Assembly (NCBI GenBank): GCA_003557485.1 | Contig: PWOI01000053.1 | Location: 1 to 5,629, forward strand | Length of the DNA: 5,629 bases | DNA from: Elusimicrobiota bacterium | Lineage (GTDB): Bacteria; CG03; SLGR01; PWQF01 | Direction: 5' to 3' | Shown: positions 1-5,629 of the stretch, in pieces | How positions within the stretch are numbered: position 1 is the first letter of the stretch | Layout of the letters: each line of letters starts with the position of its first letter | Translations under genes and position numbers: made by a program | The notes under the pieces: generated by a model | Database searches by the model: none | What the model was told of the DNA's origin: nothing | Seen by the model: the letters and a program-made list of their open reading frames with translations, nothing else

Positions 1-1803
1 AACAGCGGCGGAATCGGCAATATTGAAAAAGGCTTTCGTGAATCGGCCCTTGTAATCGAAAAAACCTGCAAAACACCTAATGTACAGCATACACCCATGG
101 AGCCTCACACAGCCTACGCTTACATGAAAAACGGACGTCTCATCATACATGCCTCTGTACAGACGCCTTATCATGTTAGAAGAATAGTATCAGGAATTCT
201 CGGACTCAAAGAGAACGAGTTAAGGGTTATAAAAGAGAAAGTGGGAGGAGGATACGGCGCCAAGCAGGACTGTAGCGTTGAGGATATAGTAGGAACGGTC
301 GCTTATATGACCGGCAAACCTGTCTACTTCCGAATGACGCGCAGGGAAGAATTTGTCGCCCGAACCAGGCCCCCTCTTCATATTACCGTAAAGGCTGGGG
401 CTGATAAGAAAGGCAATCTGAAAGCCCTGCAGATAAAGACCCTTTCCGATACGGGCGCTTACGGCCCTCACTGTCTCACCGTACCTATGAACGGCTGCTC
501 AAAAACTCTTCCTATGTTTACCTGCAAAAATATGGCTTATGATGTAAAATCATATTATACCAATAATATTGTCACCGGGGCATACCAGGGCTATGGAGTG
601 CCCCAGACCAACTTTGCAGTCCATATGGTTCTTGCGGAGCTTGCCAAAGGCCTGGGGCTCAGCTTTGAAAATTTTATATTAAAAAATCTTGTAAAGAAAA
701 ATTATAAGCTTGATATCTTAAAACAGCTTGGAGAGGGAACCGAAGGCCTCGCACAGAAAGTCTCAAGCTGCGGACTCGGTGAATGCATAGAAAAAGGCCT
801 TCTTAGATACAGAAAATGGAAAAACAACCGCTATGCTGACTCCAGCGATTATGTTCAGGGCAAAGGCATGGCCGTAATGATGCAGGGCTCGGGAATACCA
901 GGAATAGATTCAGCCAACGCCATTGTAAAAATGATATCCGACGGAACATTTATGCTTTACATCGGCGGAGCTGACCTGGGCACCGGAGAAGATACCGTCG
1001 CAGCAAAAATAGCAGCGGAAGAACTTTGCGTAACGCAGGATAAAATAACAGTTACCTCTGCGGATACCGATACCACCCCTTTTGATAAGGGATCCTACGC
1101 ATCAAGCGGCACATTTTTTACCGGGAATGCCTCATATAAGGCCGCAAATAATATGAAAAAACTTATCATACAGGCCGCAGCCGATATCCTGAAAGTAAAA
1201 AAATCAGATATAACCCTGCGAAACGGCAAAGTAAGCGCCGGCAGAAAAACTCTGACATATAAAGAGTTGGCCTATAAAACCCAGTCCGGGTCCGGATGCG
1301 GACAGCTTATAGCATCGGGTGCTTTTACGACTGAACAGTCTCCTATCCCATATGCGGCTCATTTCGCACAGGTCACTATAAACAAACGCACAGGTATCAT
1401 AAAGGTGGATAAATACTACGCTTTACACGACTGCGGGATTCCCATAAATCCCGACTTGGCTGAGGGGCAAGTATACGGAGGAATAATGAAAACAATCGGA
1501 CACTCTCTATACGAAGCGGTTGAATTCAATAAAAACGGGATATGCCTTAACGCTGATTTTACTAATTATCCAATACCCGGTATAAAAGATCTGCCAGAAG
1601 AAATTGATGTCGAGCTTATTGAGGTAGAAGACCGTATAACTCCCTATGTTGGCAAGTCCATATCAGAAATCGCCTGTAACGGAGCTTCCGCCTGCATCGC
1701 AATGGCGGTCAATGAGGCTCTGGGTATCTGGTTAAGAGAATGGCCTTTCAGACCTGAAAAAGTTTTGGCAGCCTTAGAGGAAAAGGAGAAAAATAGTATT
1801 TAA
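1..1803 (+). CDS. Xanthine dehydrogenase-family molybdopterin-binding large subunit (5' end outside window)
   Basis: The reading frame is open from base 1 to the TAA at 1801-1803, giving 600 visible residues. The motif QHTPMEPH (residues 29-36) shows that the methionine at base 97 is internal, so roughly the first 150 residues of a usual 750-780 lie outside the window. Family signatures in order: GGGYGAK (82-88), GAYQGYGVPQ (193-202), GGADLGTGEDT (322-332), YASSGTFFTGNA (366-377), HDCGIPINPDLAEGQ (476-490) and SISE (553-556) before a C-terminal RPEKVLAAL. These enzymes hydroxylate N-heterocycles or aldehydes at a Mo-pterin centre, usually with separate or fused FeS and FAD subunits. By alignment from memory to bovine xanthine oxidoreductase, Gln767 (Q54) and the base Glu1261 (E556) are kept, Glu802 is Gln (Q89, as in E. 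coli XdhA) and the substrate-binding Arg880 is Gln (Q196). Membership in the family is secure; the substrate, and xanthine in particular, is not. Confidence 0.93.
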   Translation, partial: NSGGIGNIEKGFRESALVIEKTCKTPNVQHTPMEPHTAYAYMKNGRLIIHASVQTPYHVRRIVSGILGLKENELRVIKEKVGGGYGAKQDCSVEDIVGTVAYMTGKPVYFRMTRREEFVARTRPPLHITVKAGADKKGNLKALQIKTLSDTGAYGPHCLTVPMNGCSKTLPMFTCKNMAYDVKSYYTNNIVTGAYQGYGVPQTNFAVHMVLAELAKGLGLSFENFILKNLVKKNYKLDILKQLGEGTEGLAQKVSSCGLGECIEKGLLRYRKWKNNRYADSSDYVQGKGMAVMMQGSGIPGIDSANAIVKMISDGTFMLYIGGADLGTGEDTVAAKIAAEELCVTQDKITVTSADTDTTPFDKGSYASSGTFFTGNASYKAANNMKKLIIQAAADILKVKKSDITLRNGKVSAGRKTLTYKELAYKTQSGSGCGQLIASGAFTTEQSPIPYAAHFAQVTINKRTGIIKVDKYYALHDCGIPINPDLAEGQVYGGIMKTIGHSLYEAVEFNKNGICLNADFTNYPIPGIKDLPEEIDVELIEVEDRITPYVGKSISEIACNGASACIAMAVNEALGIWLREWPFRPEKVLAALEEKEKNSI

Positions 1804-1979
1804 CGTCATCTTTCTATAAAACCTACTGTCGCTTATGGGTAAGATGGCTCCTTGGGCTGAACGACAGTGATAACAGAAATTTTTGTAAAAACGAGAGCTG
1901 GAATGAAGGGGGTGTAACTTATAGGCAGTTGGTGTCTTGAGCTTTATATAAAAATTTTAAGTCTACTCAAAAATAAATC
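1804..1979. other. Gene-free junction between hydroxylase and TA array
   Basis: This 176-bp stretch separates the convergent ends of the plus-strand hydroxylase gene and the minus-strand HEPN gene. It holds the repeat core at 1846-1881. It also has an inverted 7-mer, ACTGTCG at 1825-1831 and CGACAGT at 1862-1868, with a 30-nt loop and no T-tract, so it is not a convincing terminator. A Shine-Dalgarno-like AAGGAG lies at 1783-1788 just before the hydroxylase stop, but no open frame follows it. No plausible gene is seen here. Confidence 0.6.
1846..1881 (+). repeat. Diverged short copy (C) of the TA-flanking repeat
   Basis: These 36 bases match the right end of repeat copy B (4958-4993) at 30 positions, and all six differences are transitions. 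The shared core is GGGCTG followed by ACGRCAGTGATAAC. The longer AT-rich part of the repeat is not recognisable upstream. It lies about 106 bp past the stop codon of the HEPN gene, in the same relative position as copies A and B past the abiEii and Fic stop codons. It looks like a decayed or shorter family member. Confidence 0.7.
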
Positions 1980-2384
1980 CTATTTTACAACAGTCGCAGC
2001 CCACCTGAAAAATCTACTTGCATTTTTTACTATTTCATCTGCTTCCCTGCTGAAAATACTCCTGCTTTCGTATTGTACAAGGTTCTTTTTTGCAATAATT
2101 CTTTTCAGGGAATTACTCTTGCTCCCTGATTCGGGAAGCGGTATAGATTTTACAATTTCGCACAGATCAAGATGATTTTGTGATATCGAACGAATACCTT
2201 TCTCATGTATACAAACAGCATCCGCTGCAGAAATAACGCATTGTATTGCCAGAGTTGATGAGGCGTTATAGTTACCCTCTCTAAAAGATTTAATCATCTG
2301 AGAATGATTGTCTTCTGCTTTTTTAAGATACTGTAAAGCTTTTGATTTATCTTCTTCTCTGACCTTAATTTTTCTTGCACTCAT
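1980..2384 (-). CDS. HEPN-domain protein, putative toxin of a HEPN/MNT pair
   Basis: This 134-residue, largely helical protein has the size and shape of small HEPN proteins, starting with helices around KALQYLKKAEDNHSQM and a conserved mid-protein AIQCVISAADAVC helix (residues 46-58). Known HEPN toxins of this pairing are RNases restrained by the partner nucleotidyltransferase. The usual catalytic RX4-6H signature is not obvious. The C-terminal helix reads AKKNLVQYE (98-106), where the Arg and His positions appear as Ala and Val, but Tyr105 sits where HepT-type proteins carry the tyrosine modified by AMP. An R-SISQN-H string at residues 65-71 lies in the inter-helix loop and is probably not catalytic. 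The ATG at 2382-2384 is two bases after the upstream TAA, so the two genes are almost certainly translationally coupled. The family call is good; the activity is uncertain. Confidence 0.8.
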   Translation of the reverse strand: MSARKIKVREEDKSKALQYLKKAEDNHSQMIKSFREGNYNASSTLAIQCVISAADAVCIHEKGIRSISQNHLDLCEIVKSIPLPESGSKSNSLKRIIAKKNLVQYESRSIFSREADEIVKNASRFFRWAATVVK

Positions 2385-2386
2385 TT

Positions 2387-3022
2387 TTACTTGATATCCG
2401 TCAGATCTTTCCCATACACAAGCGTATATGTATTTATTAGAGTTGAAACAGGAGGCATTTTGTTATTAAGAAATTTAATAAATTCTTTCTTTTTCTTTAT
2501 ATATAGATCAAGATGGAGACCAAAATACTCATAGAATTCAGATGAAATTTTATCTGTAAAAGCATCCGCTATTTTTTCAAGGCTAACATCATCCCTTGTC
2601 ACCACAGCAACATCTACATCGCTATCCGGAGTATCTGTCCCTTTTGAGATGCTGCCGTATAGGAATAGTGAGACAATTTCATTTGTTAACTTATACTCTT
2701 TTATTTTACCTTTTATAAAATTCGCGATATCACTCTTTACAGCAATCTCTTTTGTAAATGCCGGAAGAAGGATATTCTTCACATTTCTGTTATTTATATT
2801 AAGACGGTAAAGATGCTGCTTTCCTATAATATCCCGCTTCAGAACATCCTCAGCATATAATTCCTTTAAAGCGGTATGCGCACCGGGCGGAGAAAGTCCC
2901 GTTTCTCTTGCAATTTCACGACCTGTTGCAATAAAATCCTGCCTTTTTGAAATAAACAAGCGGATGATTTTTAGCTTTGAAGGCGTATTTAATATTCTAT
3001 CTAGTACTCTTTCTACAACCAT
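2387..3022 (-). CDS. MNT-type nucleotidyltransferase with N-terminal winged helix, putative antitoxin of HEPN/MNT pair
   Basis: This 211-residue protein has two parts. Residues 1-85 form a winged helix-turn-helix (ATGREIARETGLSPPGAHTALKEL around 32-55, then a wing ending HLYRL at 70-74). Residues 95-211 are a minimal nucleotidyltransferase with YGSISKG (122-128), SDVDVAV (134-140) and LHLDLYI (169-175), giving the GS motif and three acidic metal ligands (D135, D137, D172). In characterised HEPN/MNT systems the MNT protein neutralises the HEPN RNase by adding AMP to a tyrosine. The intact active site fits that role (inference here). The winged helix suggests it also represses its own operon, whose promoter carries two palindromes. 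It is the first gene of a two-gene operon, with only 2 bp before the HEPN gene. The ATG at 3020-3022 lies about 20 nt downstream of the predicted transcription start. Confidence 0.88.
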   Translation of the reverse strand: MVVERVLDRILNTPSKLKIIRLFISKRQDFIATGREIARETGLSPPGAHTALKELYAEDVLKRDIIGKQHLYRLNINNRNVKNILLPAFTKEIAVKSDIANFIKGKIKEYKLTNEIVSLFLYGSISKGTDTPDSDVDVAVVTRDDVSLEKIADAFTDKISSEFYEYFGLHLDLYIKKKKEFIKFLNNKMPPVSTLINTYTLVYGKDLTDIK

Positions 3023-3038
3023 ATTATGTCAACCCTAC

Positions 3039-3072
3039 TTAACATATGTTAACTATAATTAACAAATTTGTT
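3039..3072. promoter_or_regulatory. Paired palindromic operator of the HEPN/MNT operon
   Basis: There are two perfect palindromes: TTAACATATGTTAA at 3039-3052 and AACAAATTTGTT at 3061-3072. Their centres are 21 bp apart, two helical turns, and both share the pattern AACA-AT-TGTT with small changes. The first touches the -10 box and covers the predicted start site; the second lies inside the -35/-10 spacer. This is a typical geometry for two dimers of an autorepressor on one DNA face. The likely ligand is the winged helix of the MNT protein encoded directly downstream. The palindromes are seen directly; the ligand is inferred. Confidence 0.7.
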
Positions 3073-3080
3073 TTTGTCAA
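3052..3080 (-). promoter_or_regulatory. Sigma70-type promoter for the MNT-HEPN operon
   Basis: Read on the minus strand, TTGACA (3080-3075) is followed after exactly 17 bp by TATAGT (3057-3052), a near-consensus housekeeping promoter. Transcription would start near 3045, leaving about 20 nt before the ATG at 3022. The ribosome site is weak: AGGG is about 10 nt before the ATG. A second TTGACA at 3032-3027 is too close to the start codon to serve this gene. The -35 hexamer sits at the left edge of repeat copy A. Confidence 0.78.
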
Positions 3081-3096
3081 GAGGAGCATTCCATAG

Positions 3097-3232
3097 AAAT
3101 GGGAATAGGAATAAACATCGTAACCCCCCTTTTAAATGAAGGCTATCTGATTTTAATAAAACTAAGAAGGAATTAATTGCTATATTTGAAAGTGCTGGCC
3201 CCCCGAGTTGGTCGACAGTGATAACGAGAATT
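3097..3232 (+). repeat. Repeat copy A (136 bp), between abiEii 3' end and MNT promoter
   Basis: This segment matches 4859-4993 in direct orientation, with 8 substitutions and one length change in a C-run (6 versus 5 C). The stretch 3125-3205 is identical in both copies for 81 bases. Differences cluster in the GC-rich right end (CCCCCCGAGTTGGTCGACAGTGATAAC), the part also found in copy C. Weaker similarity (13 of 22 positions) continues leftwards to the TTGACA box at 3075-3080. The right end lies 28 bp beyond the abiEii stop codon. No credible protein is encoded, and no attC-type R-box pair was found. Confidence 0.92.
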
Positions 3233-3259
3233 TAATCTGATTAAAAGATTTTTTAAACA

Positions 3260-4174
3260 TCATTCTTCTTTCCAACCTTTCTTTTGTTGCCATTTCAGAT
3301 TAAATGATTTCTTCATTACAATAGATTCTATGACCGGCATTATAAAATCTCTTAAGGTTATAACCGTATTTTCTAAACTTATCTCTGATTCTTTTATCCC
3401 AATTTTATTTAAAAATCCTTCCCACTGTTTATTTTTCTGTTTATCCATAATGAATTCTTCGCTTAACCCCACTGGAACAGTATCCGGGATTGGAGTTTTT
3501 CTTCTTTTGAAAGTTTCTTTTAATGCCTTCTGAAGTTTTGATCCATCTGTTTGAAATGTACTAATCAAAAACCGGATATCATAATAATCCTTCATACGGC
3601 TGTTGATTATTCCCTTCTCAAAAATTATCTGGATTTTCTCTGCAAGGCTTGCCTCTACAGAATAGGCTAATATGCGGGGAGCAGGAAAATCAAGCAATGT
3701 GGGATATTCAATTTTTTCCGGTTGCGTCATTATTGCGTCTCCAAACCCAATATCTATTTGAGCCGGAATAACAGCTTGTCCCAGTTGTGCCTTGAATTTT
3801 ATACGAATTCCCTGGTATTCATTTTCTTCTCTTATATCTTCTGCTAATATCGTTTCTTCAATAAAATTCAATCCGTCATCATCCACATTAACTCTGCACA
3901 ACTGCATTACCATCTCTTTTGCTTCTTTAATACTGATAATCTTTTTTGAAGAGAAATCTGCATCAAGAGTAGGTCTATGCGGTTCACCGTGCCAATAACT
4001 ATAAAGAACTGCGCCCTTTAAAACCAATTTGTCTGAGTATTCCGATATACTCAGCCTATATAGAAACCGCTCTATTGCATAACGAATTAACAAATTTGTA
4101 AAGATCTCGTTTCTCTCTCTGGAAATATTAAGCAATCGTGCCCTGACCGAAGCCGGAATATTTTTATTACTCAT
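3260..4174 (-). CDS. abiEii: AbiEii/AbiGii-family nucleotidyltransferase toxin
   Basis: This 304-residue protein is a textbook AbiEii. Motifs counted from the ATG: LKGAVLYSYW (52-61) followed by RPTLDADFS (67-75) with D71 and D73 as the acidic pair, QIDIGFGD (139-146), then VEASLAEKIQIIFEKG (173-188) and SRMKDYYDIRFL (192-203), the family's conserved Lys/Asp/Tyr block. AbiEii is the bacteriostatic toxin of the type IV AbiE system; characterised relatives bind or use nucleotides, and AbiE systems act in abortive phage infection. The frame can be extended 12 bases to a TTG at 4186, but the ATG at 4172-4174 is preferred. It has GAAG six bases upstream and overlaps the abiEi stop by 8 nt (ATGAGTAA), typical of translational coupling. 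Length is near the family norm and all core motifs are present, so it is probably functional. Confidence 0.95.
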   Translation of the reverse strand: MSNKNIPASVRARLLNISRERNEIFTNLLIRYAIERFLYRLSISEYSDKLVLKGAVLYSYWHGEPHRPTLDADFSSKKIISIKEAKEMVMQLCRVNVDDDGLNFIEETILAEDIREENEYQGIRIKFKAQLGQAVIPAQIDIGFGDAIMTQPEKIEYPTLLDFPAPRILAYSVEASLAEKIQIIFEKGIINSRMKDYYDIRFLISTFQTDGSKLQKALKETFKRRKTPIPDTVPVGLSEEFIMDKQKNKQWEGFLNKIGIKESEISLENTVITLRDFIMPVIESIVMKKSFNLKWQQKKGWKEE

Positions 4175-4766
4175 AAACTGCTTCAATATAAGGCCTTATT
4201 ACATTCTGTACTTTATTAATTTTTGAATACTCCCAAAGCTTATCTACCGTACCCTTGTTCTGTTTTTTATACTCCTTTAGTGCCTCAATAGCCACATCCA
4301 GGCCAATTTTATTTCTAAACTTGAAGCAGTCAGCAACGGTTTTTGCCGGACTATAAATATTAATTTTTATATTATCAATAAGATGCTCTTCGCAACCTTC
4401 TTTCAGGGAGTCCCCTGTCATTCTTATGATTTTAAGCGGAATATTTATTGCAGGAGTCCAATCTTTATGATGTATTGCAATCCAGATCTGAAAAGGGTTT
4501 TGGGATGTCATCTCATGAAATCTGAGCGCGCTAAGAAGGCAAATAACTGCATTGGGAACTTTTTTTGCTGTTTCAATCAGCATTATATCTTCCGAAAGCT
4601 CCTTATCCGGAATTTTATACAGACCCCTGCCTATTTTCTCAAGTTTTCCTTTTTTGTAAAGACGATAAATATACTGCCTGGGAATATTGTACTTCTCAAC
4701 ATCTTTTGGCCTCAGCACAGTATTTTTTTCAGCCAGTTCTATAATTTTTTCTATTTTACTGTTCAT
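4167..4766 (-). CDS. abiEi: AbiEi-family antitoxin / transcriptional autorepressor
   Basis: This 199-residue protein opens with a winged helix (residues 5-52: LRPKDVEKYNIPRQYIYRL, then KLEKIGRGLYKIP), followed by the AbiEi core: ICLLSALRFHEMTSQNPFQIWIAI (75-98) and YSPAKTVADCFKFRNKIGLD (138-157). In characterised AbiE systems this protein counters AbiEii without stable binding (type IV) and represses the operon by binding inverted repeats at the promoter. A 46-bp imperfect inverted repeat starts at the base immediately upstream of this gene's ATG (4764-4766), matching that mode of control. It is the first gene of the operon and overlaps abiEii by 8 nt. The ribosome site is poor, with only AAAG five bases before the ATG, so initiation may be inefficient or helped by other features. 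Confidence 0.94.
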   Translation of the reverse strand: MNSKIEKIIELAEKNTVLRPKDVEKYNIPRQYIYRLYKKGKLEKIGRGLYKIPDKELSEDIMLIETAKKVPNAVICLLSALRFHEMTSQNPFQIWIAIHHKDWTPAINIPLKIIRMTGDSLKEGCEEHLIDNIKINIYSPAKTVADCFKFRNKIGLDVAIEALKEYKKQNKGTVDKLWEYSKINKVQNVIRPYIEAVYE

Positions 4767-4812
4767 GTTACTTTACATAGGCAATTATTTATAAATGCCT
4801 ATGTTTTGTAAC
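4767..4812. promoter_or_regulatory. Inverted-repeat operator of the abiE operon
   Basis: Two 17-bp arms, 4767-4783 and 4796-4812, flank a 12-bp AT-rich spacer. The inner nine bases are perfect (ACATAGGCA / TGCCTATGT) and the outer five are perfect (GTTAC / GTAAC), separated by three mismatches (TTT against TTT on the same strand). The repeat starts immediately upstream of the abiEi start codon and reaches the -10 region, so a protein bound here would block initiation. Known AbiEi proteins autorepress by binding inverted repeats; this is the obvious target. In RNA the same arms could also fold into a hairpin over the start region. Confidence 0.82.
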
Positions 4813-4842
4813 TATACTAATATTTAATTTCATAAATGTCAA
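4811..4842 (-). promoter_or_regulatory. Sigma70-type promoter for abiEi-abiEii
   Basis: On the minus strand, a consensus TTGACA (4842-4837) is followed after 17 bp by TAGTAT (4819-4814); an alternative TATAGT (4816-4811) lies at 20 bp. The downstream context TATAGTTA is shared with the MNT promoter, where the spacer is 17 bp, suggesting common ancestry with a 3-bp length change. The transcript would begin at about 4807, at the edge of the inverted-repeat operator. Confidence 0.68.
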
Positions 4843-4858
4843 CTGAAAAATGCTACAA

Positions 4859-4993
4859 AAATGGGAACAGGAATAGACATCGTAACCCCCTTTTAAATGA
4901 AGGCTATCTGATTTTAATAAAACTAAGAAGGAATTAATTGCTATATTTGAAAGTGCTGGCCCCCCGGGCTGGACGGCAGTGATAACAGGAATT
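4859..4993 (+). repeat. Repeat copy B, between Fic 3' end and abiE promoter
   Basis: This is a direct repeat of 3097-3232 (about 94% identical; 4886-4966 is identical over 81 bases). It lies immediately upstream of the abiE -35 box and 30 bp beyond the stop codon of the Fic gene. With copy A it brackets the whole abiE operon in direct orientation, so homologous recombination between copies could delete a unit of about 1.76 kb. The right end, GGGCTGGACGGCAGTGATAAC, is the part shared with copy C. The plus strand has an open stretch (frame reading DFNKTKKELIAIF) but no start, ribosome site or continuation in copy A, so it is not called a gene. Confidence 0.92.
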
Positions 4994-5023: not shown

Positions 5024-5629
5024 TTATCTGTTTTCACTTTTTTCCGATACTGTTTCATTCATATCTATTAAATTAGTTATCACGGATTCAATTATTTCTT
5101 TCTCCGACGAACCGCTTTCTGCAATCATAAGGGTCAACGCGCACAGGGTATTCTCTTCAATGCGTTTCCTGGCTTCATTAATATATAAAAGATTGTTTTT
5201 GTCCAGGTAACTTAAAAATACAGTAGATGCGATTCTCTTATTCCCGTCCACAAAAGCATGATTTTTTGTTATAGCATAAAGCAGGTGGGCAGCTTTTGAT
5301 TCTACACTGGGATATAATTCCTGGCCGCCAAAGGTCTGATATGTATTTTCAATAGCCGATTAAAAAGACTTATCTTTTACTTTTCCAAAGAACTTTTCTC
5401 CGGTAAATTTTTTCTTTAATTGATTAACAACGTCATTCGCATCTTTTAAACTAAATTTATAGTTCTCTTTTATGGCCTCTTTTCTTTCAACTTTCCCGTT
5501 GTCATAATTATCGAATAAAACCAGGGCGTTGTAATAATCTGATATAATCTTAAGTAATCCCTTTGTTTCCAGTAAATCAGTCTCTTTTTCCAGCTTATTA
5601 ACTATATTAAAAAGCTCCTTCAGTTTTTC
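5024..5629 (-). pseudogene. Fic/Doc-domain protein (RhuM-Fic-like), interrupted by an in-frame stop; 5' end outside window
   Basis: One minus-strand frame is open from 5629 to the TAA at 5024-5026 except for a TAA at 5360-5362. Before it are 89 codons (including IISDYYNALVLFDNYDNGKV), resembling the linker before Fic in RhuM-Fic proteins; after it are 111 codons with YQTFGGQELYPSVESKAAHL, the Fic motif HAFVDGNKRIAS, and a C-terminal CALTLMIAES helix. The motif is Doc-like (GNKR rather than GNGR). Family members transfer phosphate or nucleotide groups to target proteins. Both sides stay in the same frame, so a base substitution is more likely than an indel; relatives, from memory, have Lys here (AAA to TAA). 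Between the stop and the motif histidine there is no ATG, GTG or TTG, and the GTG at 5251 lies inside the motif after the His, so restart could not restore activity. Inactivation is likely; a sequencing error cannot be excluded. Confidence 0.82.

Follow-up and report, generated by a model that had tools for sequence, protein, structure and literature searches.

The near-identical direct repeats A and B, which bracket the abiE operon, are probably att sites of a tandem array that is anchored at the 3′ end of tRNA-Asn and in which small cassettes would be moved in trans by serine recombinases. They were analyzed in a stretch of 5,629 nucleotides (the window) on contig C141 of the source genome (G000), alongside G005, a relative from the same order but another family, and the other relatives among G001-G008. 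In the proposed mechanism, a large serine recombinase would join two adjacent cores and thereby release the unit between them as a circle, which it would then insert elsewhere, with the core at the tRNA 3′ end or at an att site of an array as target. Small toxin-antitoxin (TA) units without a recombinase would travel in trans, and the TA pair would penalise loss of its unit. The 5′ part of the repeats (P) would be the end of a separate mobile element, situated 19 bp upstream of the -35 box of the TA promoter.

Repeats A (3097-3232) and B (4859-4993) share the same orientation and are identical in 127 of 136 aligned columns (93.4%), with one gap and a single uninterrupted identical run of 81 bases. 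A chance origin is excluded. The description in an earlier note of near-identical direct repeats with an 81-bp run is therefore accurate, as is its statement that only the abiE operon and its operator lie between them: the interval holds abiEii and abiEi, their promoter and the operator-like palindrome (4767-4812), and nothing else. Both repeats are composite and contain P, a leader, an 18-bp core and an arm of about 19 bp (Table 1). A repeat search revealed a partial third copy at 1845-1881 with core and arm only, matching the last 37 bases of A and B and scoring 50.9 bits with the att model described below. The tail of the repeat brackets two operons, MNT-HEPN and AbiE, with a third module, RhuM-Fic, to the right; the three att sites are co-oriented and separate these modules from each other. 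The window has no Rfam match at E-values up to 1.

The genes abiEi and abiEii form one overlapping operon, as in type IV AbiE systems, with predicted antitoxin and toxin roles. The nucleotidyltransferase of the MNT-HEPN pair shows a distant match, below cut-off, to the MntA antitoxin. Fic and RhuM were identified via the homologous, 92.5% identical region G005:C103:10294-10896 (PF02661, PF13310). This module looks decayed in both genomes, with an in-frame stop in the window and a copy split into two frames in G005. Contig C171 of the source genome breaks off within a sequence 90% identical to the dehydrogenase gene (compared with window positions 1-320), which suggests strain variation or a second copy.

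Table 1. Features of the window, with positions, strand and remarks.
Feature	Position	Strand	Remarks
Molybdopterin-binding dehydrogenase subunit	1..1803	+	Likely chromosomal flank beyond the last att site
att site C	1845..1882	-	Core 1845-1862, 15/18 to tRNA-Asn 3′ end, plus arm
HEPN protein (PF05168), paired with the nucleotidyltransferase	1980..2384	-	Pfam
MNT-type nucleotidyltransferase, N-terminal winged-helix-like part	2387..3022	-	PF01909, PF18765
MNT-HEPN promoter	3052..3080	-	-35 TTGACA 3075-3080, -10 TATAGT 3052-3057, spacing 17
P in repeat A	3100..3128	.	End of a dispersed mobile element; 19 bp from -35 hexamer
Leader in repeat A	3129..3195	.	Between P and att core; identical to leader of B
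att site A	3196..3232	-	Core 3196-3213, 14/18 to tRNA-Asn, plus arm
AbiEii nucleotidyltransferase toxin homologue	3260..4186	-	PF08843
AbiEi antitoxin homologue	4167..4766	-	PF13338; overlaps abiEii
Operator-like palindrome before abiEi	4767..4812	.	Also kept in G005
abiE promoter	4814..4842	-	-35 TTGACA 4837-4842, -10 TAGTAT 4814-4819, spacing 17
P in repeat B	4862..4890	.	19 bp from -35 hexamer
Leader in repeat B	4891..4956	.	Also in G005 abiE unit, up to 13 bp before core
att site B	4957..4993	-	Core 4957-4974, 17/18 to tRNA-Asn, plus arm
RhuM-Fic module	5024..5629	-	Cut by contig end; in-frame stop 5360-5362

The core corresponds to the last 18 bp of the tRNA-Asn gene of the source genome, 14-17 of which are kept at the sites in the window. 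On the plus strand, the core reads as the T-arm half and acceptor end of this tRNA in reverse complement. Read in the sense of the tRNA, each site consists of the arm (TGTTATCACTGCC and more), the core and the leader, with a conserved arm and a more variable leader. When matches to the tRNA end were ranked over the window, the three sites came out on top (17, 15, and 14 of 18), the next-best place reached 10, and the best match in 100 shuffled windows was 13 of 18. The source tRNA-Asn (G000:C174:3351-3426) and its G005 counterpart agree at every position over 79 bp. In G005, contig C103 carries five same-strand sites (263, 2313, 3475, 6982, 12083) in a row that terminates at tRNA-Asn (14343-14418), the 3′ end of which is the site sequence. 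Direct repeats that reproduce a tRNA 3′ end, one hallmark of a tRNA-anchored tandem integrative array, are present here. The att sequence model recovers 13 full sites in 16 Elusimicrobiota genomes, the same 13 sites from which it was built, and nothing else above 29 bits. In these genomes, full sites were found only in arrays, namely on contigs C141 and C83 of the source genome, C103, C51, and C58 of G005, and C168 of G003. The earlier note had named, as an outcome that would speak against its proposal, a repeat found genome-wide and unlinked to accessory genes; this does not apply to the att part and does apply to P, which is dispersed.

A row physically ending at tRNA-Asn was seen in G005 (C103). 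In the source assembly, contig C141 (5.6 kb) is too short to display such a row and is not joined to tRNA-Asn, which counts against an anchored array. In four relatives, contigs end 0-18 bp past the tRNA-Asn 3′ end (G001:C141, G002:C21, G004:C164, G007:C144), and these breaks, scored at tRNA-Asn genes, fit a variable downstream content in the sampled populations. We also sought an empty site beyond the dehydrogenase gene; around its orthologues in G002, G003, G004, and G007, neither an att site nor a tRNA is found, and hence they offer no unambiguous empty site. The ungapped dyad symmetry that is expected of serine-integrase sites was not significant for nearly all att sites, another point against the proposed reading.

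The units between the sites, which are small, accessory and mostly TA modules, are shared and reordered between genomes. The abiE unit (window 3201-4944) and G005:C103:3480-5221 share 92.7% identity, and the source genome has a second copy of the MNT-HEPN unit (window 1976-3118 versus G000:C83:339-1481, 91.3% identical). The end of the recombinase unit adjoining tRNA-Asn (C174:3409-3816) matches G005 at 93.4% identity; there, this sequence is displaced outward by one unit. C83 and C103 have a further unit in common, at 90% identity. For the por genes next to this tRNA-Asn, identity between the source genome and G005 is only 69%. Unit order and neighbours differ as well, with abiE being followed by MNT-HEPN in the source genome versus a methyltransferase in G005. 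Judged from these alignments, reordered units with 90-93% identity point to horizontal exchange at fixed boundaries between families. The earlier note had also suggested that abiE is a 1.76-kb unit that a single recombination event could excise or amplify. The layout favours such a unit, since the sites bracket a discrete segment and the abiE unit has other neighbours in another family; neither a strain with one repeat copy and without abiE nor a circular form or read junction was seen. Viral contigs contain no P or att pattern and only distant AbiEii; in plasmids, the sole matches cover about 70 bp within abiEi. The contig that carries the copy of the window's MNT-HEPN pair also has another pair of this type, more diverged (C83 3759-4805).

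Site-specific recombinase genes at an att site were found on two contigs of the source genome, C174 and C83. Directly downstream of the source tRNA-Asn, and pointing toward it, lies the gene of a large serine recombinase with Recombinase and Zn-ribbon domains (C174:3502-4413), which is cut by the contig end. The serine recombinase on C83 (534 aa; Resolvase, Recombinase, and Zn-ribbon domains) adjoins an att site, and its reading frame crosses the core, with WLPGLDGSDN being encoded by the tRNA end and the arm. The alignment with a relative of this enzyme in G001 (C178) stops 18 bp from the tRNA-Gln 3′ end, another relative in the source genome (C159) overlaps tRNA-Gln, and fragments occur near tRNA-Gln in G005 (C107). 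As its relatives adjoin tRNA-Gln, the C83 recombinase family appears to target tRNA 3′ ends. At or near tRNA-Gln, the C83-related recombinases on these three contigs are arranged tail to tail with the tRNA. According to a review (PMC5704250), tyrosine integrases act at tRNA 3′ ends and site-specific serine integrases disrupt genes; against this background, serine recombinases at tRNA 3′ ends look unusual. The window itself contains no recombinase gene, which counts against the array reading. On C83, the serine recombinase is flanked by 98% identical inverted copies (1523-1710 and 3480-3667) that comprise the recombinase 3′ end and half an att site and could permit inversion of the recombinase gene. 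The att-bearing contig C58 of G005 encodes a XerD-like tyrosine recombinase of 193 aa (2138-2719) beside a PAS histidine kinase.

P is a 29-bp sequence (TGGGAAYAGGAATARACATCGTAACCCCC) with five copies in the source genome and fifteen in G008, the contigs of which match HGW-Elusimicrobia-2 records. All named matches of P are Elusimicrobia MAGs except for one MAG, whose label says only bacterium. In G008, contigs break off beyond P at almost the same distance each time and in nearly identical sequence, which is how the edge of a long multicopy element should appear. The opposite element end, seen in two genomes, is an imperfect inverted copy of P. The end of P lies 19 bp from a -35 hexamer: TTG occupies bases 20-22 in 22 of 33 distinct copies, with 0.77 expected per position. 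The copies always face the same way relative to the promoter, and a -10-like signal follows 17 bp beyond the -35. Both TA promoters in the window obey the 19-bp rule exactly (TTGACA on the minus strand, 3075-3080 and 4837-4842). Because this spacing is fixed across copies, the P element is probably promoter-phased, by target choice or by function, and P is the end of a possible promoter-targeting mobile element. Multiple copies and imperfect inverted ends agree with an insertion sequence; a complete copy was not assembled, and a search via 40 G008 contig ends gave one further end. Neither a partial ORF next to one copy of P nor a C-terminal remnant could be placed confidently in a transposase family, and we make no assignment to IS481. 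We also discarded the reading of P as a motif that codes for a peptide, the frame not being kept across copies.

The high similarity of A and B can be traced to their P and leader. In G005 as well, the abiE unit includes a diverged P, along with the leader as far as 13 bp short of the core position; P and leader therefore probably belong to this unit. The MNT unit in the window has them in common with abiE, whereas its counterpart on C83 departs from this sequence inside P and continues into a different leader. The A/B identity over P and leader hence seems to reflect a shared unit end. The MNT unit in the window may have obtained its abiE-like end by recombination at P, by recombination at the core, or by copying.

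The earlier note had explained the high identity of A and B by recent duplication, gene conversion or selection. A local origin by duplication or gene conversion, in which an intergenic segment was copied and no site-specific mobility took place, would account for the 81 identical bases, a run exceeding the identity of the same leader between two genomes. It does not predict, however, that the tail of the repeat recurs at 1845 and in other genomes' arrays, each time made up of the tRNA-Asn 3′ end and the arm. We consider it improbable as a full account and unlikely for core and arm, although gene conversion could still have homogenised P and leader; as the main cause it should give way to site-specific accretion at tRNA-Asn, which the repeats appear to mark. 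Even less probable is that A and B are two remnants of one insertion element (P plus interior) at two promoters. P is indeed dispersed, promoter-phased and the 5′ part of both repeats, but its copies elsewhere have neither core nor arm, and P is missing from some att sites (site C at 1845, C83:1501). Such remnants explain only part of the repeat and are refuted for core and arm.

Integron gene cassettes are small and co-oriented, have a site downstream of each operon and commonly carry TA modules. The window resembles them in its co-oriented repeats between small TA cassettes and in a site downstream of each operon, and A and B could accordingly be attC sites of a classical array. This is almost certainly not the case: A and B lack paired GTTRRRY/RYYYAAC core motifs, their single-strand folds are no better than those of shuffled sequence, the core is a tRNA end, and no integron integrase (IntI) was found above cut-off, the only tyrosine recombinase on an att contig (G005:C58) scoring 105 bits against 265 (TIGR02249). 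The strongest competitor, itself unlikely, is a tandem array moved by a tyrosine recombinase with the serine recombinases as mere passengers. Tyrosine integrases are usual at tRNA 3′ ends (PMC5704250), and the XerD-like recombinase of G005 is located on an att-bearing contig. None of 12 Phage_integrase matches in four genomes, however, lies on C141, C83, C174, C103, or C168, and serine recombinases directly adjoin the tRNA or att site, in one and the same orientation, in two cases in the source genome and once more with tRNA-Gln. Movement by serine recombinases at the tRNA-Asn end remains our preferred explanation.

Tycheposons resemble the units described here in being small cargo elements at tRNA genes; they may differ in their tyrosine recombinases and in the whole tRNA that they carry. 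Tandem accretion and CIMEs at tRNA genes (PMC5704250) are similar in their direct att repeats with a tRNA 3′ end, in decayed or passive elements in a row and in TA modules among the cargo. The units here differ in being 1.2-1.8 kb in size, often with a single TA operon, and common to different families, and the nearby enzymes are serine rather than tyrosine recombinases. SCC of staphylococci and the Enterococcus cassette chromosome (PMC6222049) likewise combine large serine recombinases, a fixed chromosomal site and variable cargo. Here, in contrast, the target is tRNA-Asn instead of rlmH, the units are much smaller and the rows longer, and the recombinase is not a Ccr by the curated cut-off: the best NCBIfam match of the C83 enzyme is CcrB with 100.5 bits, far from the required 900. 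While tRNA-linked tandem islands are already known, the small, single-operon unit size, the serine recombinases at tRNA 3′ ends, the exchange between families and the promoter-phased element in the same repeat are new here.

Tentatively, and with less than even confidence, we propose that two systems meet in these repeats: a serine-recombinase analogue of integrons, with the 18-bp tRNA end as shared site and TA operons exchanged between families, and a promoter-selecting element. The latter would insert 19 bp upstream of the -35 box, close to where bound RNA polymerase begins on its upstream side, and its end would become embedded in the cassette promoters. If true, TA operons would be exchanged as cassettes without integrons in a phylum that is known mainly from metagenomes; the tRNA end would be the site in common, and serine recombinases would probably drive the exchange. 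The array reading would explain why TA operons are conserved between families while tRNA-adjacent genes are not. Should the promoter-phased element be confirmed, bacteria would have a counterpart of the retrotransposons that target genes bound by polymerase.
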